From an uncultured Chitinophagaceae bacterium (GTDB taxonomy: Bacteria > Bacteroidota > Bacteroidia > Chitinophagales > Chitinophagaceae): DNA of 64,000 bases. The DNA lies in NCBI GenBank assembly GCA_937873715.1, contig CALMYJ010000003.1:186001-250000 (forward strand), read 5' to 3'. A program made the position numbers and the translations under genes. The stretch's first letter is position 1. Each line of letters begins with the position of its first letter. Under the pieces are notes generated by a model, which was not told the DNA's origin, did not search any database, and saw nothing but the letters and a program-made list of their open reading frames with translations. Shown here piece after piece: positions 53,149 through 64,000 of the stretch.

Positions 53149-56100
53149 CTACCGGAATAACACCAGCGTGCCAAATGTTACCCCCGATTTTTTTCCCGGA
53201 ATGTTATCGTACACCATACCATCCCATTGTTTCCCGTTTTTAAACACCGCCCTTATCCGCCAGGCATAGGTGTCCTGCTTTACAGGCTGTCCTTTAAAAG
53301 TGCCATCCCAGCCTGCAACGGGTGCGCCGGTGGCATCTAATTCACGGGTTTCAAAAAGCAGCTTACCCCAGGCATCAAATATTTGCAGGTGGTATTCCTG
53401 CAACCCCTTACCCAATGGTTTAAAACTGCGGAACTGTGTTTGAATACTATTAGGATAAAAAGCATTGGGCACATATAGGTAGCCCGGTATGCCATCTATC
53501 CTTGCAATTTTTACCACGGTGGTGCTGCAGGTCATATTAGTATCCAGTACAGTTAGCTGTATAATATAATTACCGGTATCGGCATACTTATGGTCGGGCA
53601 CATCCCTTGTATCCGCATAAGTGCCATCACCCAAATCCCACTGGTACGTATACTTATTACTGTTAGGGGTAAGATTGGTAAAGCTAAAAGTGTAATTAGG
53701 TATGGTAATCACCGGTGAGGGATTGATGTTGAAATCAGCCGCAGGCGGAATTTTTGCCAGCACATAGTTAGGCTTTACCAGCGAATCTTTACAGCCGCCG
53801 GTATTATACGCCACCAGCTTTACGCTATACGGCGAATTGCGTGGCGCAAAATCATGCACCGGGTTGGTGCTGTTGCTCATACCGCCATCCCCAAAATACC
53901 AGCTAAAGTCGGTAGCATTTTGTGTAAGGTTGCTAAACTGTACTGTGGTGGTGCCACATCCTGTAAGCGGATTACCGGCAAATTCAACCACAGGATTTGT
54001 AGAGATGGTTACAAATTGTACTGCTGTATCCCTGCACACCCCATCGCTGGCTATAAGCGATATAGCATAGCGGCCCAGGTTGTTGTACAAATGGGTGGGG
54101 CTGTTAAATGCCACAGTGGGGCTGCCATCGCCCCAGTTCCAGGTATATGCATTGGCGTTGGCAGACCTGTTGGCCGTAATTACATTTAATGTGCCGTTGC
54201 AACCCAGGGTATCGTTTACAGTAAATGCTGCCGTTGGCTTTATCCTCGATGTAAAGCTTACGGCAAATGTATCGGCCTTGCAGCCATACACATTATTCGC
54301 CACTAAGGTGAGTGTATAAGGGGTGGCGGCCTGCGTTATTGTAAAAGCAGGACTGGCCTCCGTGCTGATGGGCTGGCCATTGAGCAGCCATTGGTAGGCA
54401 TCTGTATATGTGGCGTTATTCACCACCACAGGACTAAAGGGTACACAATCAGACGGATTAATCAGGCTGAACTGTGCCACCGGCAAAGGATTAAGCTGTA
54501 CTGTAGCGGATGCAGTATCGCTGCAACCCAGTATATTGGTGGCTACCAGTTGGGTAAGGAACTGCCGGGGAAGTGCAGACATCGCTGCAACATACCGGTG
54601 TGTAAAATTTCCGTTTGTAGAAAGCTGTACCCCATCTACCAGCCAGCGATAACTCAGCGGTCCGTTATCTTTTAGTATGCTGGTATTTTGCCAGGCAATG
54701 ATGGTATCCGTTTTGCAAATGTTTAAATCGCCTGGTGTAAATGCAGCTTCGGGTGTTGCCCGTACCGTAAATGTTTTTTCAACACTGTCTGTACAGCCAG
54801 CGGCATTAACCGCAACCATTTTTACCTTAAAGGTACCGGCATTGTTAAATGTATATTGTGCCGATACGCCGTTGGCCATAATAAGCGATGGCGTAACTGT
54901 AGTGTCATAAAAATACCAGGTTGCCGCTTCATTGATAATTGCCGGAGCAGTAACTGTTGCCGTAAACGGAGCACAGTGCGATATATTGATATTACTTTGC
55001 AGTTGCACATCCGGCTTGCCCAAAAGGCTTACCGTTTGAAATACTGTATCAAAACATACTACTCCAAAATTATTGGTACGCTCGGCACGTAGTACAATAT
55101 CATAATCTCCCGGTATGGTATATACATGTAACGGTGTTTCGCCGGCAGATGATTGCCCATCGCCCCAAAACCAGCGGTAGTTAGTAGCATCGGTTGAACT
55201 GTTATTGATTTTCACCGTATCACCAATACAATACAACTGAGCATTTGTATTAAATGCCGCTTTAGGCTTAGCATACACCGTTACCTGCCTGAAGGCTGTG
55301 GTATCGCTGCAGCCATTGGTGATATCAATTTTTACGGTAAAATCGCCAGGTTTGTTATACGTATGGGTAACGCTGGTTTCATTATTACTGGTAACAATTA
55401 CCGGCGTACCATCGCCAAAATCCCACCTGAAGCCGGTGGCACCCGGCGTGCTGTTGATAAAGCGAACCACATGGGGCACACAACCAAACAAATTGGCACC
55501 ACCAATATTAATTTGCGGCACAATTACATTGGGGGCAATGCGTATATCAATAGCCGTTATATCGGTGCCGCATTCATTTTCGGCAATCAGTTGAATGGTA
55601 AAAGTATCAACCAGTGTGCCGGTATTATACGTATAATTTAAAATGCCGGTTGTTGTAGTGGTTCTTGTATCCCCGTTACCAAAATCCCAATAATAGGTAT
55701 TAGGCCCGCCAAGTGAGGTATTATTAATCGCCAGGGTAAATGGCGAGCACCCCGATGTGGTGGGCACACCAAATCTTGCTTTGGGATTGGCTCTTACTTC
55801 CACGCTGTCTCTCCAAACGGTGGTATCACAGCCATTGTATGCTTTAAGTGTTACATAATAGGTGGTATCATTAAAGTTAGGGCTGGCTTCAAAATTTATA
55901 CTGCCGGGCTGGGCATCTGTACTGGTAATCCCATTACCAAAATCCCAGAAAAATTCTATCCCGTTTAGCAGGTTGCTGGTATTGGTAAAAGGAACGACTA
56001 ATGGGCCACAGCCTTTGGCATTGCCTTTTGTAAACTGTGCCACTGCCGTTTTAAATGTAATAAACTGCTGCGTTACCGAATCGGCTTTACAGCCATATTG

Positions 56101-59100
56101 GCTAAGCGTTTTAAGCTGTACTATTACCGTATCACTACTGTTAGGCATAATATACCCGGGAAAGAACCCGGCTGGATTAGTACCTACAGACACCCCATTG
56201 GCAAACCACTGGTACTGGCCATTGCGGTCGGGGTAAGTATTTACCTGTATCACCGTACCAAGATCAAAAGGTGTGCAGCCCGAATTTTTTGTTGCCGTAA
56301 AATCTGCCCGGGCATCTTCCCTCACAGTTATTTTCACAGGCAGGCTAAAACTGCCCAGCACTCCGGGGCACAAAGTGGTAAATGCGATGCGGCGGTACCA
56401 GGTGGTGCTGGTAAGCACCGGCGGCGTATAGCTAATACCGTTAGCACCGGGTATGGGTATCCAGTTAATACTGTCGGTACTGCGCTGCCAAAGGTAGGCC
56501 GGTGTGCCAGCGCCACCTGTGGCGGCAAGCCCTGTAATAATTGCCGGTTGCGTATTGATACATACCGACTGGTTAGGGCTGATGCTGTTATTGGTGATAC
56601 TGTCCTGTACAGTTACCAGCATGGTATCGGTGGCAATACAGGAGCCACCGCCAAAACTGTACACCAATGTAAAAGTTCCGGGCACAAGCGGGGTAAAGCT
56701 GCCACCCGGCGTTATCCATACGGAACCCGACCAGCTACCTCCTGCCGGCAGGGCCGAAAATGCAAGTGCTGTGCTGCTTTGGCATACTGTTGTATCGTTT
56801 CCGGCCTGTGCAACCGGTGGATCTATTACAGTTACCCTAAGGCTGTCTGTTTTGGTGCACTGGTTCAACGTAGCCGAATACCGGATAAAATAACTGCCAT
56901 TGCCTGCCGCCTGGGGATTAAACACACCACTGCTGCTGACATGGTTACCCGACCAAACACCACCTGCCGGTGAACCGGTAAACTGTACCGTACTGGTGTT
57001 GTTACATACCACGCTGTCATTACCGGCATTTGTATTCGGGTAAGCCTGTACCTGTACTGTTACAGTTGCCGTATCCGTACAACCGTTGGGCGCTGTACCA
57101 ATTACGGCATACTGTGTTGTGGCAGCAGGTGTAGCCACAACAGTGTCCCGATTGTTTACATTCAACCCGGCTGCCGGCTGCCACAGGTAGGTTACTGCAC
57201 CGGCAGCAGTAAGCTCTGCACTCAAGCCTTCACATACCGTGCTGCTTAATGGTGCCGTAGTTACAGTTGGTCTTTTTTTAACGGTTATTTCAACCGTATC
57301 CGTTGAAAAGCAGTTTATCCCGGCCGAAGCTTTTACCACATATTTATATACAGTGTCTGCATTAGGCCCTGTGTAAAACTGCGTGGCTTCGGTAATAGCT
57401 GCATTAGGTGTGGTTAAGCCTGTTGCAGGCTGCCACTCGTAGGTAATACCAGCCGTTCCTGCTGTGCCAATGGTGGTGCTGCCATCGCTGCAAATGTTTT
57501 TATCAGCCCCTGCATTGGCGGGTGGTGCTGCTATTACATTTACCGAAGCAGTAGCGGAGGTTACGCCACATTCGTTGGTGATATCCAGCTTTACAGCCCG
57601 TGTGCCGGGAGTATTATAAGCGATGGCGCCCGGCACTGCTGTGGTTGCCGATGCAGGACTGCCGTTGGTAAATGTCCAGTTGTAAGTAAGGGTACTGTCT
57701 GCATAACAGGAAGTAATAACTGCCACCGGCGAAACGGTATTACCGGGGCAAATAGCATTAATGGCATTAATGCTCAAGTTGGGCTTTTCTTTTACTGTAA
57801 AAGTATCCCTGCCGATTGCCGGTATACAGGAGCCTCCTGTGCCTATAGCCGCCACCGTGAGTTGTATGGCATATTTGCCCGGGGTGTTAAATTGTATAGA
57901 TGGATTTTGAGAAGATGCATCTGTATTATTGATAAAGCTGAAAGTGGGTGATGTAGTATTGCCACAGCCCTGGTTATCAATATAAGTAACCTGCCAGTTG
58001 TAATTATCCCCCAGGCAGGAGCCGGCAGTGGATGTGGTACTCATGGTAGTGGTGCCGGTACCGCAGGATGATTTGTTGCTCATACTGAATGCGGCCTGGG
58101 GCGGATTACGTACACATATTATTTCGGTGGCGCTATCCATACCGCAACGGGTGTTGTGGATATACAGCTTTACCGTATAATTACCCGGGGCATTGAACCG
58201 TACATTTAAAAAATTACTGCCTGAAGTCCACAACAGGCCATTGGTATGATTACCATTGAGTGACCCAAGTGTGCCGCTATTAAGGGTATAGCCAGTTGCT
58301 GGCGTTATCGTCCATACCACTGCACCATTATTTACGCAGGTAGAATTGCCCCCACCCGTAGCTGTTACTATACCGCCATAGGAGCCGCCATTGAAAATGG
58401 TAACATTGCTGTTAACACATACTGTTTTTTCCGGCGATACTGAAACAACAGCCCGTGGCATGCCCGACACCAAAATAGGGATTACACTTACGCTGGTACT
58501 GGCACAGGGATTTTCGATATCCAGCGTTGCCCGGAATGAATTGGAAAAATTATTAGCGCCATTGCTGCTATTTGTGCCGCAGGAGGTATAATTAAATATA
58601 TGCGTAATGGTATCCGGTGGCGGATGTGTAAATAACTGTGCTGCACTGCCATCATTTACAGAAACCCGGTATACCGTTCCCGGCGAATTATTGTTGTACC
58701 CCGTTATTACAAACCGCAAAGAATCCGGCGCACAGATATCTGTGTTGCCAAGACTGATGAAGCCACCACCGGGATTAGTGCCCAAAAAAACATTATACCT
58801 TTTTATGCCCTCGCAACCGTTTTGCCCTCTTACCCTCACCGTCATGGTGCGGTTGCCAATGGGATAGGTATGCTGTATAATGCTGCCCGGCGCCCAGGTG
58901 GTAAACGTGGTATCCTGCGAACCATCACCCCATTGTATGGTGTACGACTGGTTGGTGCTGGTGGTGGTGGACTGGTTGATAAACTGGAAGGTATGCGTTG
59001 CCGTGATAGCACACCTGCGAAAAGTTTCCACGCCATTAAAGGGGCCAAACGTTACATCATTTTCGGCAGTGTTGATGGCCGCACTGGGCACACGTTGTAT

Positions 59101-59694
59101 ATTGATGGGCTTTGTAGCCGTGTCTTTACATCCAAAAATATTGGTGGCGATGAGCTGTACATTATATACCTGTGTACCACCAGTACCCACCGCATTTAAA
59201 AACTGGTGACTGGGATTGGCAGCGGTGGTAACAGTACCGTCTTCAAAATTCCACTGGTAGCTGTTGCCCTGCCCTGCAGAGCTGTTGGTAAAAGCAACCG
59301 TGGTATTGCCGCAAACATTATCTGGTGCAAAATTGAAGTTAGCAGTTGGCTTGGTAGCGCTAACCCGTACATATATAAAGGTAGAATCCCGGTTGGTAGC
59401 ACTGCGTATAAGCTGTACTGTACTATCTATACCAACTGTATTGTATGTAATCGTTTGGGGAGTTGAGCTTGTGCTTGTGGCAGGCGTACCCAGTTTAAAG
59501 CGCCAGTCGATAGACGTAAAACCTGTAGCGATGGTTTCGTAGGTAATGGAGCTTCCGCGGCAAACATTGATGGTATCGCCTTTTGCAATGGCACGGCCAT
59601 TAACCCTGATACCGGGAAATAGCTGGGCGGCTACCTGCTGTGTAATGAATGATGTACAAAAAAATAAAAGTACAGGGTATAAGAAATACTTCAT
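53149..59694 (-). CDS. Giant PKD-repeat surface protein with T9SS type B (gliding motility) C-terminal domain
   Basis: This 2181-residue secreted adhesin has a signal peptide of about 23 residues. At least nine PKD-type beta domains follow, shown by WDFGDG-like motifs (for example FFWDFGNG, YYWDFGNG, FRWDFGDG, YRWFWGDG, YTWNWGDG, FSWYFGDG, YQWDLGDG). Other Ig-like repeats with Cys pairs occupy the middle. It ends in the type B sorting domain: YLYVPNAFYPNS, then LQIFDAWGKLLFET, GWDGTFKG and the TFGTLVLFR end. It is likely exported by type IX secretion as a surface or biofilm adhesin, with the PorP-like protein encoded next. It resembles SprB in design but is smaller. Confidence 0.92.
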   Translation of the reverse strand: MKYFLYPVLLFFCTSFITQQVAAQLFPGIRVNGRAIAKGDTINVCRGSSITYETIATGFTSIDWRFKLGTPATSTSSTPQTITYNTVGIDSTVQLIRSATNRDSTFIYVRVSATKPTANFNFAPDNVCGNTTVAFTNSSAGQGNSYQWNFEDGTVTTAANPSHQFLNAVGTGGTQVYNVQLIATNIFGCKDTATKPINIQRVPSAAINTAENDVTFGPFNGVETFRRCAITATHTFQFINQSTTTSTNQSYTIQWGDGSQDTTFTTWAPGSIIQHTYPIGNRTMTVRVRGQNGCEGIKRYNVFLGTNPGGGFISLGNTDICAPDSLRFVITGYNNNSPGTVYRVSVNDGSAAQLFTHPPPDTITHIFNYTSCGTNSSNGANNFSNSFRATLDIENPCASTSVSVIPILVSGMPRAVVSVSPEKTVCVNSNVTIFNGGSYGGIVTATGGGNSTCVNNGAVVWTITPATGYTLNSGTLGSLNGNHTNGLLWTSGSNFLNVRFNAPGNYTVKLYIHNTRCGMDSATEIICVRNPPQAAFSMSNKSSCGTGTTTMSTTSTAGSCLGDNYNWQVTYIDNQGCGNTTSPTFSFINNTDASSQNPSIQFNTPGKYAIQLTVAAIGTGGSCIPAIGRDTFTVKEKPNLSINAINAICPGNTVSPVAVITSCYADSTLTYNWTFTNGSPASATTAVPGAIAYNTPGTRAVKLDITNECGVTSATASVNVIAAPPANAGADKNICSDGSTTIGTAGTAGITYEWQPATGLTTPNAAITEATQFYTGPNADTVYKYVVKASAGINCFSTDTVEITVKKRPTVTTAPLSSTVCEGLSAELTAAGAVTYLWQPAAGLNVNNRDTVVATPAATTQYAVIGTAPNGCTDTATVTVQVQAYPNTNAGNDSVVCNNTSTVQFTGSPAGGVWSGNHVSSSGVFNPQAAGNGSYFIRYSATLNQCTKTDSLRVTVIDPPVAQAGNDTTVCQSSTALAFSALPAGGSWSGSVWITPGGSFTPLVPGTFTLVYSFGGGSCIATDTMLVTVQDSITNNSISPNQSVCINTQPAIITGLAATGGAGTPAYLWQRSTDSINWIPIPGANGISYTPPVLTSTTWYRRIAFTTLCPGVLGSFSLPVKITVREDARADFTATKNSGCTPFDLGTVIQVNTYPDRNGQYQWFANGVSVGTNPAGFFPGYIMPNSSDTVIVQLKTLSQYGCKADSVTQQFITFKTAVAQFTKGNAKGCGPLVVPFTNTSNLLNGIEFFWDFGNGITSTDAQPGSINFEASPNFNDTTYYVTLKAYNGCDTTVWRDSVEVRANPKARFGVPTTSGCSPFTLAINNTSLGGPNTYYWDFGNGDTRTTTTTGILNYTYNTGTLVDTFTIQLIAENECGTDITAIDIRIAPNVIVPQINIGGANLFGCVPHVVRFINSTPGATGFRWDFGDGTPVIVTSNNETSVTHTYNKPGDFTVKIDITNGCSDTTAFRQVTVYAKPKAAFNTNAQLYCIGDTVKINNSSTDATNYRWFWGDGQSSAGETPLHVYTIPGDYDIVLRAERTNNFGVVCFDTVFQTVSLLGKPDVQLQSNINISHCAPFTATVTAPAIINEAATWYFYDTTVTPSLIMANGVSAQYTFNNAGTFKVKMVAVNAAGCTDSVEKTFTVRATPEAAFTPGDLNICKTDTIIAWQNTSILKDNGPLSYRWLVDGVQLSTNGNFTHRYVAAMSALPRQFLTQLVATNILGCSDTASATVQLNPLPVAQFSLINPSDCVPFSPVVVNNATYTDAYQWLLNGQPISTEASPAFTITQAATPYTLTLVANNVYGCKADTFAVSFTSRIKPTAAFTVNDTLGCNGTLNVITANRSANANAYTWNWGDGSPTVAFNSPTHLYNNLGRYAISLIASDGVCRDTAVQFVTISTNPVVEFAGNPLTGCGTTTVQFSNLTQNATDFSWYFGDGGMSNSTNPVHDFAPRNSPYSVKLVAYNTGGCKDSLVKPNYVLAKIPPAADFNINPSPVITIPNYTFSFTNLTPNSNKYTYQWDLGDGTYADTRDVPDHKYADTGNYIIQLTVLDTNMTCSTTVVKIARIDGIPGYLYVPNAFYPNSIQTQFRSFKPLGKGLQEYHLQIFDAWGKLLFETRELDATGAPVAGWDGTFKGQPVKQDTYAWRIRAVFKNGKQWDGMVYDNIPGKKSGVTFGTLVLFR

Positions 59695-59842: not shown

Positions 59843-60256
59843 ATGACCGACGTACATAACCCACAGCAGCGCCGCTATAATATGCAGCAGATTAAAAGCA
59901 CCAACACCAAACCGGAGTTGATGGTGCGGCAGTTTTTATTTGGTGAGGGCTACAGGTACAGGCTGCATAAAAAAAACCTCCCCGGGAAGCCTGATATAGT
60001 ACTGCCAAAACATAAAACTATAATTTTTGTACATGGCTGTTTTTGGCATGGCCACAGCAACTGTAAATATTACAAAGTACCCGGAACCCGAACTGAATGG
60101 TGGCTTAACAAAATAAACACAAACAAAGCGAATGATAAAAAAGCGGTAAAGACGCTGAAAGAAAACGGCTGGAAAATTATTACGTTATGGGAATGTGAAT
60201 TGAAGCCTGATAAAAGAGAAAAGACACTTTACAAGCTGCTGAACAAACTGGCATAA
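59843..60256 (+). CDS. vsr: Very short patch repair endonuclease
   Basis: Vsr nicks T:G mismatches that arise when 5-methylcytosine deaminates. The 137-residue protein, taken from the ATG at 59843, aligns residue for residue with E. coli Vsr: catalytic Asp51, His64 and His69, and zinc ligands Cys66, His71, Cys74 and Cys118. It keeps the GKPDIVLP and FVHGCFWHGH motifs. It precedes a C5 methyltransferase by 84 bases, fitting its protective role. It may also serve as a defence nuclease in the operon. Confidence 0.93.
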   Translation: MTDVHNPQQRRYNMQQIKSTNTKPELMVRQFLFGEGYRYRLHKKNLPGKPDIVLPKHKTIIFVHGCFWHGHSNCKYYKVPGTRTEWWLNKINTNKANDKKAVKTLKENGWKIITLWECELKPDKREKTLYKLLNKLA

Positions 60257-60340
60257 GGTTATTACAAAATTTTGCTAAGTGAAGTAAAAGCCAATAACTT
60301 TACGAAAACCATAACTAACTTGCCTGCAAAAAACCATTCC

Positions 60341-61585
60341 ATGAATTTTATCGACCTCTTTGCCGGAGCCGGTGGGCTATCTGAGGGTTTTAGAAGGGCC
60401 GGTTATACCCCTATTGCACATGTGGAGATGGATGAAGCGGCCTGTTACACATTAAAAACAAGGGTGGCCTATCACTGGCTGTTAAACAATAACCGGAAAG
60501 ATGTTTATGAAAAATACCTGAAAGGAGAAATTACCCGTAAGGAGTTATATGCAGAAATACCACAGGAGTTATTGAATAGTGTGATTAATCTGCCGATTGG
60601 CGGAGATAATAATCCTAAAATTCACAAGGCTATTGAAGAACTGCTAGGAAAACGCAAGGTTGATTTAATTATTGGCGGCCCCCCCTGCCAGGCTTATTCA
60701 TTAGTGGGAAGGGCAAGGCGTAAAGATGGCATGAAAGGCGACCCCCGCAATTACCTGTATGTGCAGTATGCAAAATACCTGGAGAAGTACCAGCCTAAAT
60801 TGTTTGTGTTTGAAAATGTGCTGGGCTTAAAGTCTGCAGGCTCCGGTATTTATCTGGAGAACATGGAAAAGCTTTTTGAAAAGAAAGGCTATCACATGAA
60901 ACTGTTTACTGTGGAAGCCAACAACTTTGGCGTACTTCAAAACAGAAAAAGGGTAATTATCATTGGCTGGCAAAAAGATAAAAAGATTGAAGTGCCGGAT
61001 CTGGAAAAAATAAGAACCAAAACAAAACATACTGTAAGTGAATTGCTGAATGATCTTCCGGCCCTGAAGGCAGGAGAAGGTGTGGATCGCTATACTTCTT
61101 ATGCTGTTAAACAAACGCCATCTTATCTGAACAACACAGGCATACGCAACGGAATTGATATACTTACACAGCATGTGGCACGGCCGCACACAGAACAGGA
61201 TAAAGAAATTTATCGCATTGCAGTAAGGGCTTTGCAGAATGGTAAGCGGTTGAATTATAATGACCTGGAAGATGGTTTAAAATCACATAAAAACAGGGAT
61301 TCTTTTATTGACCGGTTTAAAGTAGTGAATGATAAAGCTGCCTATTCCCAAACCGTGGTGGCCCATATTGCCAAAGACGGACACTATTACATACACCCGG
61401 ATATAAAACAGAACCGCTCCTTAACTATAAGGGAAGCTGCCCGCCTGCAATCTTTTCCTGATGACTTTTATTTTGAAGGAGTGAAAGAAGGAAAGAACAG
61501 AACGGCTGCTTTTAAACAGATTGGGAATGCGGTGCCGCCATTAATGGCTGAAAAAATAGCCAATAAACTGAAAAATCTTTTATGA
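60341..61585 (+). CDS. DNA (cytosine-5-)-methyltransferase
   Basis: This 414-residue C5 methyltransferase is counted from the ATG at 60341; a TTG at 60272 is less likely. Motif I is DLFAGAGGLSEGF at 5-17. Motif IV is GGPPCQAYS with catalytic Cys116, motif VI is the ENV segment near residue 158, motif VIII contains QNRKRVIIIG, and motif X contains QIGNAVPP. The target-recognition region lies about 270-350. A long insert (about 45-90) sits before motif IV. It modifies host DNA for an R-M system. Its TGA overlaps the next ATG by four bases, so it is translationally coupled to the ATPase gene. Confidence 0.95.
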   Translation: MNFIDLFAGAGGLSEGFRRAGYTPIAHVEMDEAACYTLKTRVAYHWLLNNNRKDVYEKYLKGEITRKELYAEIPQELLNSVINLPIGGDNNPKIHKAIEELLGKRKVDLIIGGPPCQAYSLVGRARRKDGMKGDPRNYLYVQYAKYLEKYQPKLFVFENVLGLKSAGSGIYLENMEKLFEKKGYHMKLFTVEANNFGVLQNRKRVIIIGWQKDKKIEVPDLEKIRTKTKHTVSELLNDLPALKAGEGVDRYTSYAVKQTPSYLNNTGIRNGIDILTQHVARPHTEQDKEIYRIAVRALQNGKRLNYNDLEDGLKSHKNRDSFIDRFKVVNDKAAYSQTVVAHIAKDGHYYIHPDIKQNRSLTIREAARLQSFPDDFYFEGVKEGKNRTAAFKQIGNAVPPLMAEKIANKLKNLL

Positions 61586-63441
61586 GTGATACACTTCTTT
61601 TAAGGTTTGACCCAAACACTATAGAACATTTAGGTATTTCTTTATACTCAAAATTGCCAAGTGTTTTATCAGAATTAATTTCTAATTCTTGGGATGCTGA
61701 TTCTGAGAAAGCAATAATAAATTTCACAGACAAGAAAGAAATAAAAGAAATCGAATACATAGACTTTGGGGAAGGCATGACATTCTCTGAATTAAATGAA
61801 AAGTACCTGGTGATTGGAAGAAATAGAAGGGCAGAAGAGAATAAGCAGACTAGCAAAAAAGGAAGAAAAGTAATTGGCAAAAAAGGTCTTGGAAAACTAT
61901 CAGTTTTTGGGATTTGTGATATAATTGAAGTCATTTCGATTAAAGATGGTTTTAAAAACCATTTCAAGATGAACTTAGAAGATATTAAAAATAGCAAAGG
62001 AAATTATTCTCCTGAATTGCTTCTTCCCAAAGATACTATTGCTAACTCAGAAGAAAAGGGAACGAGAATTATACTAAAACAAATACGAAGAAAGTCTGGA
62101 TTTGACTTAAATAGTATTGCTGTCAATCTTTCGAAGAAGTTTTTGATTTTCGACAAAATGAGCGTAGAACTTTCACTAAACGGAAACACCCCAATAGCTG
62201 TAATTAATGAATTAAAATTTAATGGATTAAATGTTCAGTTTAAATGGGACTTCCCTGATGAAAAATACGGAAAGAATTATGAGTTCTGGAACCTAGTCTT
62301 CGGCTCAATATTTACAACCGAAACACCGATAAAAGACACTGAAATGAGTGGCATTTATTTAACATCAAGAGGAAAAATTGTAAATAACGCTAGTTTTTAT
62401 GGCTTAAGAGATAATGACAATTTTCACACATATGTGACGGGGTATTTAGAGATAGACTTCATAGATGAATTTAAAGAAGATGTAATTTCAACTGATCGAC
62501 ATTCTCTAATCTGGGAAAATGATAAAACTAAGGAATTACAAAATTACTTGCAATTAGTAATCAAAAAAATTGGATCGGAATGGAGAGTAAACCGAGGCAA
62601 GTCAAAAAAAGAGATTGTAAAAAAAGAGAAGGGAATAGATGTTGATGAATGGCAGAAAAAGCTACCTACTTATGAAAGAGATTTAAGCGATAAAATAATT
62701 CTACCAATACTTGAAAACCCAAATATCGACATCGAAGAGTCAGGTGATATTATTGGAAATGTTATTGATAAATTCGACAACAAAATTTTTAAAGATTATG
62801 CTTCAAAGATTGCTGACATTTCAAAGCCAGAGCAAATTCCGTCTCTTTTGAGATTAATGGAAGAGTGGAAAACAATAGAGGCTAAACAGTACAGCGACTT
62901 GGCTTTATCAAGAATATCGGTAATCGAAAAATTTGAAGAATACATTAACACCGATACAAAAGAAGTACCCACCCTCCATAATTTTTTAAAAAAATTTTCT
63001 TGGCTGTTAGACCCAAGAATATTAGAGTTTAAAGATGAGGTCAAATATTCAGATTTATTAAAAACCCATTTTCCTGAGAGTACATTGGAGGAAAAAAACC
63101 GAAGAATTGACTTTCTATGTAGTAACGCATTAGGTGAAATACTATACGTAATTGAAATTAAGCGTAGTCTTTATAATATCGATGAAAAATCTATTGAGCA
63201 AGCATATCATTATGGAGCCTTTTTAAAGGAGAAATATGCATCAGAGTCTGGGTTTTCAAAAGTTGTATGCTATGTAGTTGGAGGTAGCAAGAGCGGTGAT
63301 TATATGTTTAAGCGTAAGGAAAGCACCTACTCTGAAACAGGAGAGGTTTTTGTTAAAACTTACATTGAATTATTAGAGCAATCAAAGGAATATCACAAAG
63401 AATTTTTAGAGATAAAAAAAATGAATTCAAGCAACTCATGA
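61582..63441 (+). CDS. MORC-like GHKL ATPase with C-terminal PD-(D/E)XK (DUF4263/Shedu-like) nuclease domain
   Basis: This 619-residue protein begins with a GHKL ATPase domain: Glu31, Asn35 and Asp38 in ELISNSWD (N box), DFGEGM at 61-66 (G1), and GKKGLGKLS at 99-107 (G2), with IGRNRRAE at 78-85 between. An S5-like middle domain follows (about 160-330), then a charged helical linker. The last about 155 residues read as a nuclease: FLKKFSWLLDPR (468-479) as in DUF4263/Shedu, Asp510 in RRIDFLC, and Glu525-x-Lys527 in VIEIKR. It is likely the ATP-dependent restriction component, as in HgiDII/BbrUII-type enzymes. The gene is A+T-richer than its neighbours. Confidence 0.8.
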   Translation: MSDTLLLRFDPNTIEHLGISLYSKLPSVLSELISNSWDADSEKAIINFTDKKEIKEIEYIDFGEGMTFSELNEKYLVIGRNRRAEENKQTSKKGRKVIGKKGLGKLSVFGICDIIEVISIKDGFKNHFKMNLEDIKNSKGNYSPELLLPKDTIANSEEKGTRIILKQIRRKSGFDLNSIAVNLSKKFLIFDKMSVELSLNGNTPIAVINELKFNGLNVQFKWDFPDEKYGKNYEFWNLVFGSIFTTETPIKDTEMSGIYLTSRGKIVNNASFYGLRDNDNFHTYVTGYLEIDFIDEFKEDVISTDRHSLIWENDKTKELQNYLQLVIKKIGSEWRVNRGKSKKEIVKKEKGIDVDEWQKKLPTYERDLSDKIILPILENPNIDIEESGDIIGNVIDKFDNKIFKDYASKIADISKPEQIPSLLRLMEEWKTIEAKQYSDLALSRISVIEKFEEYINTDTKEVPTLHNFLKKFSWLLDPRILEFKDEVKYSDLLKTHFPESTLEEKNRRIDFLCSNALGEILYVIEIKRSLYNIDEKSIEQAYHYGAFLKEKYASESGFSKVVCYVVGGSKSGDYMFKRKESTYSETGEVFVKTYIELLEQSKEYHKEFLEIKKMNSSNS

Positions 63442-64000
63442 TTGAATGGCGCTTCAAACCCAACTCTCGTGATGATATGGATGTGGACCCCATCCAGGGA
63501 GAATTCTTTACCACCAGGGATATAGATAACATTTCAACTGCTGTGGTAAGAGAAGGTATTCAGAATGCACTGGATGAAAGAAACCGGGGTGAACAAACAG
63601 AAACAGTAAGGGTAAGAATATTTCTTTCCGGCAATCAGTATGCATTGCAGCCGCAGTCTTATCTTCCTTTGCTACAAACACTGCAGCCGCATTTAAAAGC
63701 TACAGGTTCCGGTCTGCAATCATTACCGGATTTTACTGCTCCAATGAAATTCCTGGTGTTTGAGGATTTCAATACCAAAGGACTTGAAGGAAACCCTAAG
63801 GAATCCTATGTAGAAAATATTAAAGACGGACAGCCACACAACTTTTATTATTTCTGGCGAAATGTTGGCCGTTCCGGTAAAGCAGATGATCAATTGGGAA
63901 GGTGGGGATTAGGCAAAACAGTCTTTCCTGCTTCTTCACGAATTTATACTTTTTGGGGAATCACAGTCAGGAAAAGCGACCAGCGTAAAATGCTGATGGG
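63438..64000 (+). CDS. Second GHKL-type ATPase, 3' end outside window
   Basis: This frame runs open from the ATG at 63438 to the window end (187 whole codons). Its ATG overlaps the previous gene's TGA. The N box is EGIQNALDE with Glu39, Asn43 and Asp46. A degenerate G1 is FEDFNTKGL (108-116), and G2 is GRWGLGKTVFP (154-164). An insert of about 45 residues separates the N box and G1. It belongs to the GHKL fold but is distinct from the preceding ATPase. Paired ATPases in R-M operons may form one complex. The C-terminal domains are not visible, so its role remains open. Confidence 0.8.
   Translation, partial: MIEWRFKPNSRDDMDVDPIQGEFFTTRDIDNISTAVVREGIQNALDERNRGEQTETVRVRIFLSGNQYALQPQSYLPLLQTLQPHLKATGSGLQSLPDFTAPMKFLVFEDFNTKGLEGNPKESYVENIKDGQPHNFYYFWRNVGRSGKADDQLGRWGLGKTVFPASSRIYTFWGITVRKSDQRKMLM

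Follow-up and report, generated by a model that had tools for sequence, protein, structure and literature searches.

A methyltransferase operon of a Chitinophagaceae bacterium combines an exchangeable slot with a candidate GHKL ATPase companion cassette

GHKL ATPases have been described before in the neighbourhood of restriction genes. Excerpts from Iyer et al. (2008; PMC2292703) report GHKL genes together with methyltransferases, Vsr and restriction nucleases, give the name paraMORC3 to an architecture that joins a GHKL domain to a restriction-fold nuclease, and note that some MORC neighbourhoods contain a second GHKL gene (paraMORC1). VcSduA, which has the paraMORC3-type architecture, is presented in excerpts from PMC12137116 as an independent system that is active against Drexlerviridae phages and requires both its ATPase and its nuclease residues. 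Excerpts from Bellieny-Rabelo (2021; PMC8011034) describe pairs of HATPase_c_3/histidine kinase-like and response-regulator-like proteins beside C5 methyltransferases. Here we describe a six-gene operon that begins in a 64,000-nucleotide stretch of DNA from an uncultured Chitinophagaceae bacterium (the window; G000:C3:186001-250000, from an assembly of 3.86 Mb in 38 contigs). Its genes encode, in order, a Vsr-family endonuclease, a C5 cytosine methyltransferase, a GHKL ATPase with a predicted nuclease domain (the GHKL-nuclease), and three proteins that we call A (a second GHKL ATPase), B and C. We tentatively favour reading it as a modular restriction-modification operon in which Vsr and the methyltransferase are kept, the GHKL-nuclease occupies an interchangeable slot, and A-B-C forms a companion cassette – likely an ATP-gated clamp that would aid the destruction of unmethylated DNA.

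The first four genes lie on the plus strand where the preliminary description of the window had placed them: vsr at 59843..60256 (137 aa), the methyltransferase at 60341..61585, the GHKL-nuclease at 61582..63441 (619 aa) and A from 63438 to 64000, where the window end cuts it. That description expected the operon to run on, and extending the contig past position 64000 supplied the rest of A (652 aa; L002:6439-8397, window-equivalent end 65396), followed by B (253 aa; L002:8398-9159, window-equivalent 65397-66158) and C (240 aa; L002:9156-9878, window-equivalent 66155-66877). The ATGA overlaps reported between the last three genes of the window are present in the sequence, joining the methyltransferase to the GHKL-nuclease (61582-61585) and the GHKL-nuclease to A (63438-63441); B and C overlap in the same way, and A and B abut. 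The arrangement is more than a product of chance, since all six genes recur, identically ordered, at a second locus, L006.

Family models identify the first two proteins. Vsr matches TIGR00632 with 153 bits (cut-off 98) and PF03852 with 118.5 bits, and contains HGCFWHGH, which we take to be the Vsr motif. The methyltransferase matches TIGR00675 (182 bits, cut-off 101) and PF00145 (215 bits) and carries PPCQ and ENV motifs; its open frame runs from TTG 60272, and the likely start is ATG 60341 because its relatives in L003, L005, L006 and L007 start there or at most five residues away. Its top PADLOC model is DrmMII (575 bits), a likeness to DISARM, whereas none of the six proteins matched a further Drm model (for the methyltransferase, among the best 25 of 62 families). 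As the DrmMII match stands alone, with none to DrmA, DrmB or DrmC, we rejected DISARM. We also rejected Mza, for which the six proteins' matches hold a single negligible hit, of the GHKL-nuclease to MzaB.

The GHKL-nuclease carries an N-terminal HATPase_c_3 domain (E 6e-17), a weak C-terminal match to HSDR_N_2 at residues 501-564 (E 0.0016, 18.9 bits, cut-off 25), and an alignment to the BbrUII/HgiDII model NF050001 over residues 7-614 (305 bits; 298.7 bits in a second run). Together these features correspond to the paraMORC3 architecture, a GHKL domain with a C-terminal restriction-fold E-D-ExK nuclease; RRID and EIK can be seen by eye. Because the NF050001 alignment is end to end yet scores below the curated cut-off of 550, we regard the protein as a distant BbrUII/HgiDII relative, which bears out the kinship first proposed for it. 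The label ‘DUF4263-like’ given earlier to its nuclease survives only in part: the weak HSDR_N_2 match points to a restriction fold, but DUF4263 gave no match at E≤0.1. A sequence search of solved structures returned a weak Hsp90 match (E 0.013). The protein shares with BbrUII/HgiDII, paraMORC3 and VcSduA an N-terminal GHKL ATPase and a C-terminal restriction-fold nuclease, the window's copy adjoining a C5 methyltransferase. It differs from BbrUII/HgiDII in its score, and from VcSduA – an independent system in the excerpts of PMC12137116 – in belonging to an operon that adds A-B-C.

We observed that the slot occupied by the GHKL-nuclease changes among close relatives. Across seven loci (the window's and L003-L008), A is 66-84%, B 58-86% and C 70-81% identical, and the slot holds four different modules: the GHKL-nuclease in the window and L006; a two-ATPase kinase-like protein with a receiver-like partner (the latter judged by eye) in L003 and L007; a KaiC-like module in L004 and L005; and EcoRII-C in L008. 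The methyltransferases of the window and L003 are 79% identical despite their different slots. Between the slot gene and A there is either an overlap or a gap of at most 34 bp in the window, L003, L005, L006, L007 and L008, and a gap of 64 bp in L004. The slot also differs in composition. In the window it has 31.7% G+C, compared with 41.5% for the methyltransferase and 40.6% for A; over the six loci computed, slot genes range from 28.9 to 34.6% and methyltransferase and A genes from 35.0 to 41.5%, the slot being lower in each (by 9-10 points in the window and L006, 6-9 in L003 and L008, the latter measured against A only, 3-7 in L007 and 2-4 in L005). A base of methyltransferase and A-B-C with a changing slot appears to account best for the whole.

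Two of these modules deserve comment in their own right. The KaiC-like ATPase belongs to a three-gene module in the nuclease slot (L005:3172-7244, L004:176-3728). The L003/L007 pair resembles the pairs of Bellieny-Rabelo (2021) in its similar architecture and in adjoining Vsr and a C5 methyltransferase, whereas the new Pfam families of PMC8011034 miss the L003 pair at E≤0.01; the excerpts of that paper make no mention of A-B-C.

The preliminary description had proposed a single composite ATP-driven machine made of two GHKL ATPases and one nuclease. In favour of such a fixed machine, the same six genes recur in L006, and a haloarchaeal plasmid locus, L049, combines a C5 methyltransferase, a BbrUII-family enzyme (801 bits) and A-B-C – so the expected co-occurrence in other genomes does hold. 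The two ATPases nevertheless lie mostly apart in the samples searched. The BbrUII/HgiDII model at ≥200 bits found 12 loci in nine genomes among 296 genomes of the phylum, and only the window's genome among the nine appears on the match lists for A or DUF6339 (the A list being a different draw of 385 genomes, and the DUF6339 model missing the window's own C). L006 and L049 are also the only two of 28 other A-B-C loci with a GHKL-nuclease beside the triad. With the slot varying among close relatives as well, we rejected an obligate two-ATPase machine, and such a fixed machine is the least probable of the accounts weighed here. The broader proposal of a restriction-type operon is supported.

The A protein links the triad to a candidate system listed by PADLOC, PDC-M33 (PDC presumably standing for phage defence candidate), whose genes likewise run A, B, C and whose canonical C is DUF6339 (PF19866). 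A matches the A-subunit model PDC-M33A (PDLC04582) with 61.5 bits over residues 33-305 (E 1.5e-17), and hhalign against the canonical PDC-M33A set gave 99.9% (E 3.8e-35); the homology spans the GHKL domain and the region that follows. Its GHKL motifs are intact, with E39/Q42/N43/D46, E109-D110/N112-T113 and G154/G157/G159-K160 invariant across 16 sequences. The gene downstream of the GHKL-nuclease is hence no ordinary unrelated ATPase; it opens a triad with kinship to a candidate defence system. B is predicted to form an Ig/FN3-like sandwich with helices (from the structure predicted for P0241, an 89% identical relative, pLDDT 86), and C to be mostly helical (from that predicted for the identical P0121, pLDDT 91). 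The PDC-M33B model gave no match to B at E≤10 and hhalign was not significant, though B's position is conserved. For C, PF19866 gave no match, and hhalign against the DUF6339 set reached 54% probability (E 1.3e-4) with distant rows of the window's type and 9.6% with close rows only. Judged from sequence, A-B-C is a divergent relative of PDC-M33, to which A is homologous, C bears a weak resemblance and B corresponds by position. As a further likeness, triads of the window's type (L016, L017) adjoin methyltransferases of the same subfamily as L035, whose PDC-M33 is canonical (A 294 bits, C 154 bits). The differences are that the window's B and C match no PDC-M33 or DUF6339 model and that its triad is part of a restriction-modification operon.

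No nuclease, helicase or toxin-like domain was recognised in A, B or C. Foldseek returned no match for B or C at E≤0.001, the VIA structure rows covering C 157-240 and B 7-117, so that a fold in the other, barely tested parts could be missed; a known nuclease fold in B or C is unsupported. The sequence search of solved structures gave nothing for A at E≤1 and, for C, three hits that look like chance (best E 0.06). Separately, the protein P0351 resembles B and has a precomputed Abi_2 domain (PF07751), possibly a fusion or a joined prediction.

A-B-C recurs beside DNA methyltransferases. At 25 of the 28 other A-B-C loci a DNA methyltransferase lies within the stretch read (22 C5, three adenine-type), and the accompanying restriction modules are BbrUII-family, EcoRII-C, HpaII, Sau3AI, AlwI, FokI-like or type I, or none is recognised. 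The 28 comprise six loci of one search, the non-window matches of genome searches with A, C and DUF6339, and plasmid records (13 of 27 distinct matching records were fetched, the other 14 being further Priestia, Ligilactobacillus and Lactococcus records); they are not independent, as L003-L008 among themselves and L029 with L046 illustrate. L032 counts as two triads (C matches 7.5e-5 and 9.6e-4), and L004 is included although its contig stops before any methyltransferase is visible; L008 shows a methyltransferase piece only. Left out were G672 (a weak A match, E 5.4e-5, on a 3.4 kb piece with B and C unmatched) and G302, whose C-like fragment contains stops; uncounted were L076 (annotation only) and a second, partial A gene that the haloarchaeal plasmid of L046 also carries (L046:1-1432). 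Position served to assign B in L028 and in both L032 triads; the adenine methyltransferases of L045 (ADPPY, DTPY) were named by eye, the partners in L044 and L041 and the AIPR of L031 from record annotation, and the L042 Vsr from annotation plus motif.

The triad is rare: C occurs in three of 294 genomes of the family and the A profile matched six of 385 genomes of the phylum, the window's included in both. A or C led to eight genomes of the same phylum, of which seven have a C5 methyltransferase within 10 kb (in fact within about 2 kb), compared with an expectation of 0.09 derived from one to three C5 methyltransferases per genome (tail P 9e-14, independence assumed). As controls in these eight genomes and the window's own, a C5 methyltransferase was within 10 kb of 0/9 AbiEii loci and 2/120 ResIII matches; these controls are small, and distances are those on contigs as assembled. 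Beyond the phylum, A-B-C reaches haloarchaea and a cyanobacterial plasmid. This Synechococcus plasmid (L076:1014-5626, L048:256-5820) holds two triads, one overlapping a C5 methyltransferase gene and the other an MzaD-like nuclease gene.

From these observations we infer the biochemical steps, the anti-phage role and the DNA state recognised by A-B-C as follows. Going by what is known of their families, the methyltransferase would label the cell's own DNA, with Vsr repairing the T:G mismatches that arise when 5-methylcytosine is deaminated. Restriction in this operon probably falls to the GHKL-nuclease, by analogy with VcSduA as excerpted from PMC12137116. A would close around unmarked or cut DNA upon ATP binding, B and C may serve as its structural or loading partners, and the cassette would support whichever nuclease adjoins it, its target probably being DNA without the mark, such as phage DNA. 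We favour this helper role because no nuclease was recognised in A-B-C and the cassette accepts many partners. A bolder extension, possible but doubtful, makes PDC-M33 and its relatives a universal restriction-modification plug-in: one GHKL-driven three-protein engine, in bacteria and archaea, that would couple to almost any methyltransferase or nuclease, with a minimal set of methyltransferase, Vsr and A-B-C restricting alone.

Several observations weigh against the helper role and the modular slot. No methyltransferase lies near the triads of L031, which adjoins AIPR, and L034, which adjoins a reverse transcriptase, so a methyltransferase is not strictly needed (PLSDB gene tables are incomplete, and one near L031 could be missed). 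The argument from slot composition is weakened because the window's C is itself G+C-poor (35.4%; third positions 29.5%, compared with 28.1% in the slot) and the gap in L005 is small. The kinase-like and GHKL-nuclease modules are not unrelated, as both carry an N-terminal HATPase_c_3 domain. With no nuclease or helicase recognised in A-B-C, how the cassette would hinder a phage is conjectural. Finally, L016, L017, L018 and L035 contain Vsr, a C5 methyltransferase (50-61% identical among themselves) and A-B-C; no restriction enzyme was recognised there, other neighbours not having been searched with family models. These four loci fit a helper poorly, since A-B-C would there have to restrict alone or with Vsr.

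The same four loci are the main evidence for an alternative that we consider rather unlikely, in which A-B-C is itself the restriction engine, reading the mark of the neighbouring methyltransferase and destroying or silencing unmarked DNA, and adjoining nucleases form a second system on the same methyltransferase. The overlap of the C gene with the methyltransferase gene in cyanobacterial L048 also suits an engine. Against it, neither B nor C has a recognised nuclease fold, and the triad accompanies methyltransferases of differing chemistry as well as type I systems, for which a single mark-reading site is hard to imagine. That breadth of partners, extending to AIPR and reverse transcriptase, would instead suit a guard that triggers abortive infection when the neighbouring restriction-modification system is inhibited or phage DNA is cut. 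A guard is nonetheless improbable: A, B and C show no toxin-like domain, and the A gene overlaps the nuclease gene in the window and in L008, which a guard would not need. GHKL proteins also include chaperones, and exchangeable partners could be clients of a regulator or Hsp90-like chaperone of restriction-modification proteins that, for example, delays restriction on entry into a new host. The partners share no common fold, so such a chaperone would need broad specificity; no observation here supports it, and we think it very improbable. As an observation apart, the triad at L034:7923-13332 has a C extended to 471 aa and lies about 0.6 kb behind the reverse transcriptase gene, which may represent another type of partner.

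The modular operon that we favour was likely acquired by lateral insertion. Downstream of C, on the opposite strand, lies a prolyl oligopeptidase (POP) gene, and upstream, also on the opposite strand, a large PKD-type gene, these two identifications being made by eye; in a congeneric relative, G703, the PKD gene follows POP after about 350 bp with no operon between, and it is on this one relative that the proposed insertion between the two is based. In nine other relatives fetched, POP is present but the stretch shows no match to PKD, some of these stretches stopping at a contig end; that the flanks are adjacent in just one of ten relatives counts against the proposal. The PKD-type gene bordering the insertion point (window 53149-59694, minus strand) encodes a predicted secreted 2181-aa protein with, by eye, PKD-like repeats and a gliding-type C-terminus. 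L002 contains no tRNA and no Rfam family at gathering score. A viral origin is unsupported: scans of viral contigs with the C and A profiles found no relative. The A of Arthrobacter has a match in one ‘Bacteriophage sp.’ record of 6 kb.

Full-text literature searches found no paper on PDC-M33 or DUF6339, and wider searches for GHKL with restriction or phage terms showed no title on the triad beyond the three papers cited here; no phage test of the cassette was found. Restriction systems are usually read as a methyltransferase plus a nuclease; here a candidate defence cassette without a recognised nuclease is repeatedly found next to C5, adenine and type I systems, and PDC-M33/DUF6339 gains a testable role. 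The cassette provides a bacterial context in which to ask the MORC question of how methylation-linked GHKL ATPases act on DNA, and would allow a test of whether restriction by a GHKL clamp is possible without DNA cleavage. If the plug-in extension were true, the minimal combination of methyltransferase, Vsr and A-B-C would constitute a new class of restriction-modification system without a classical restriction enzyme.
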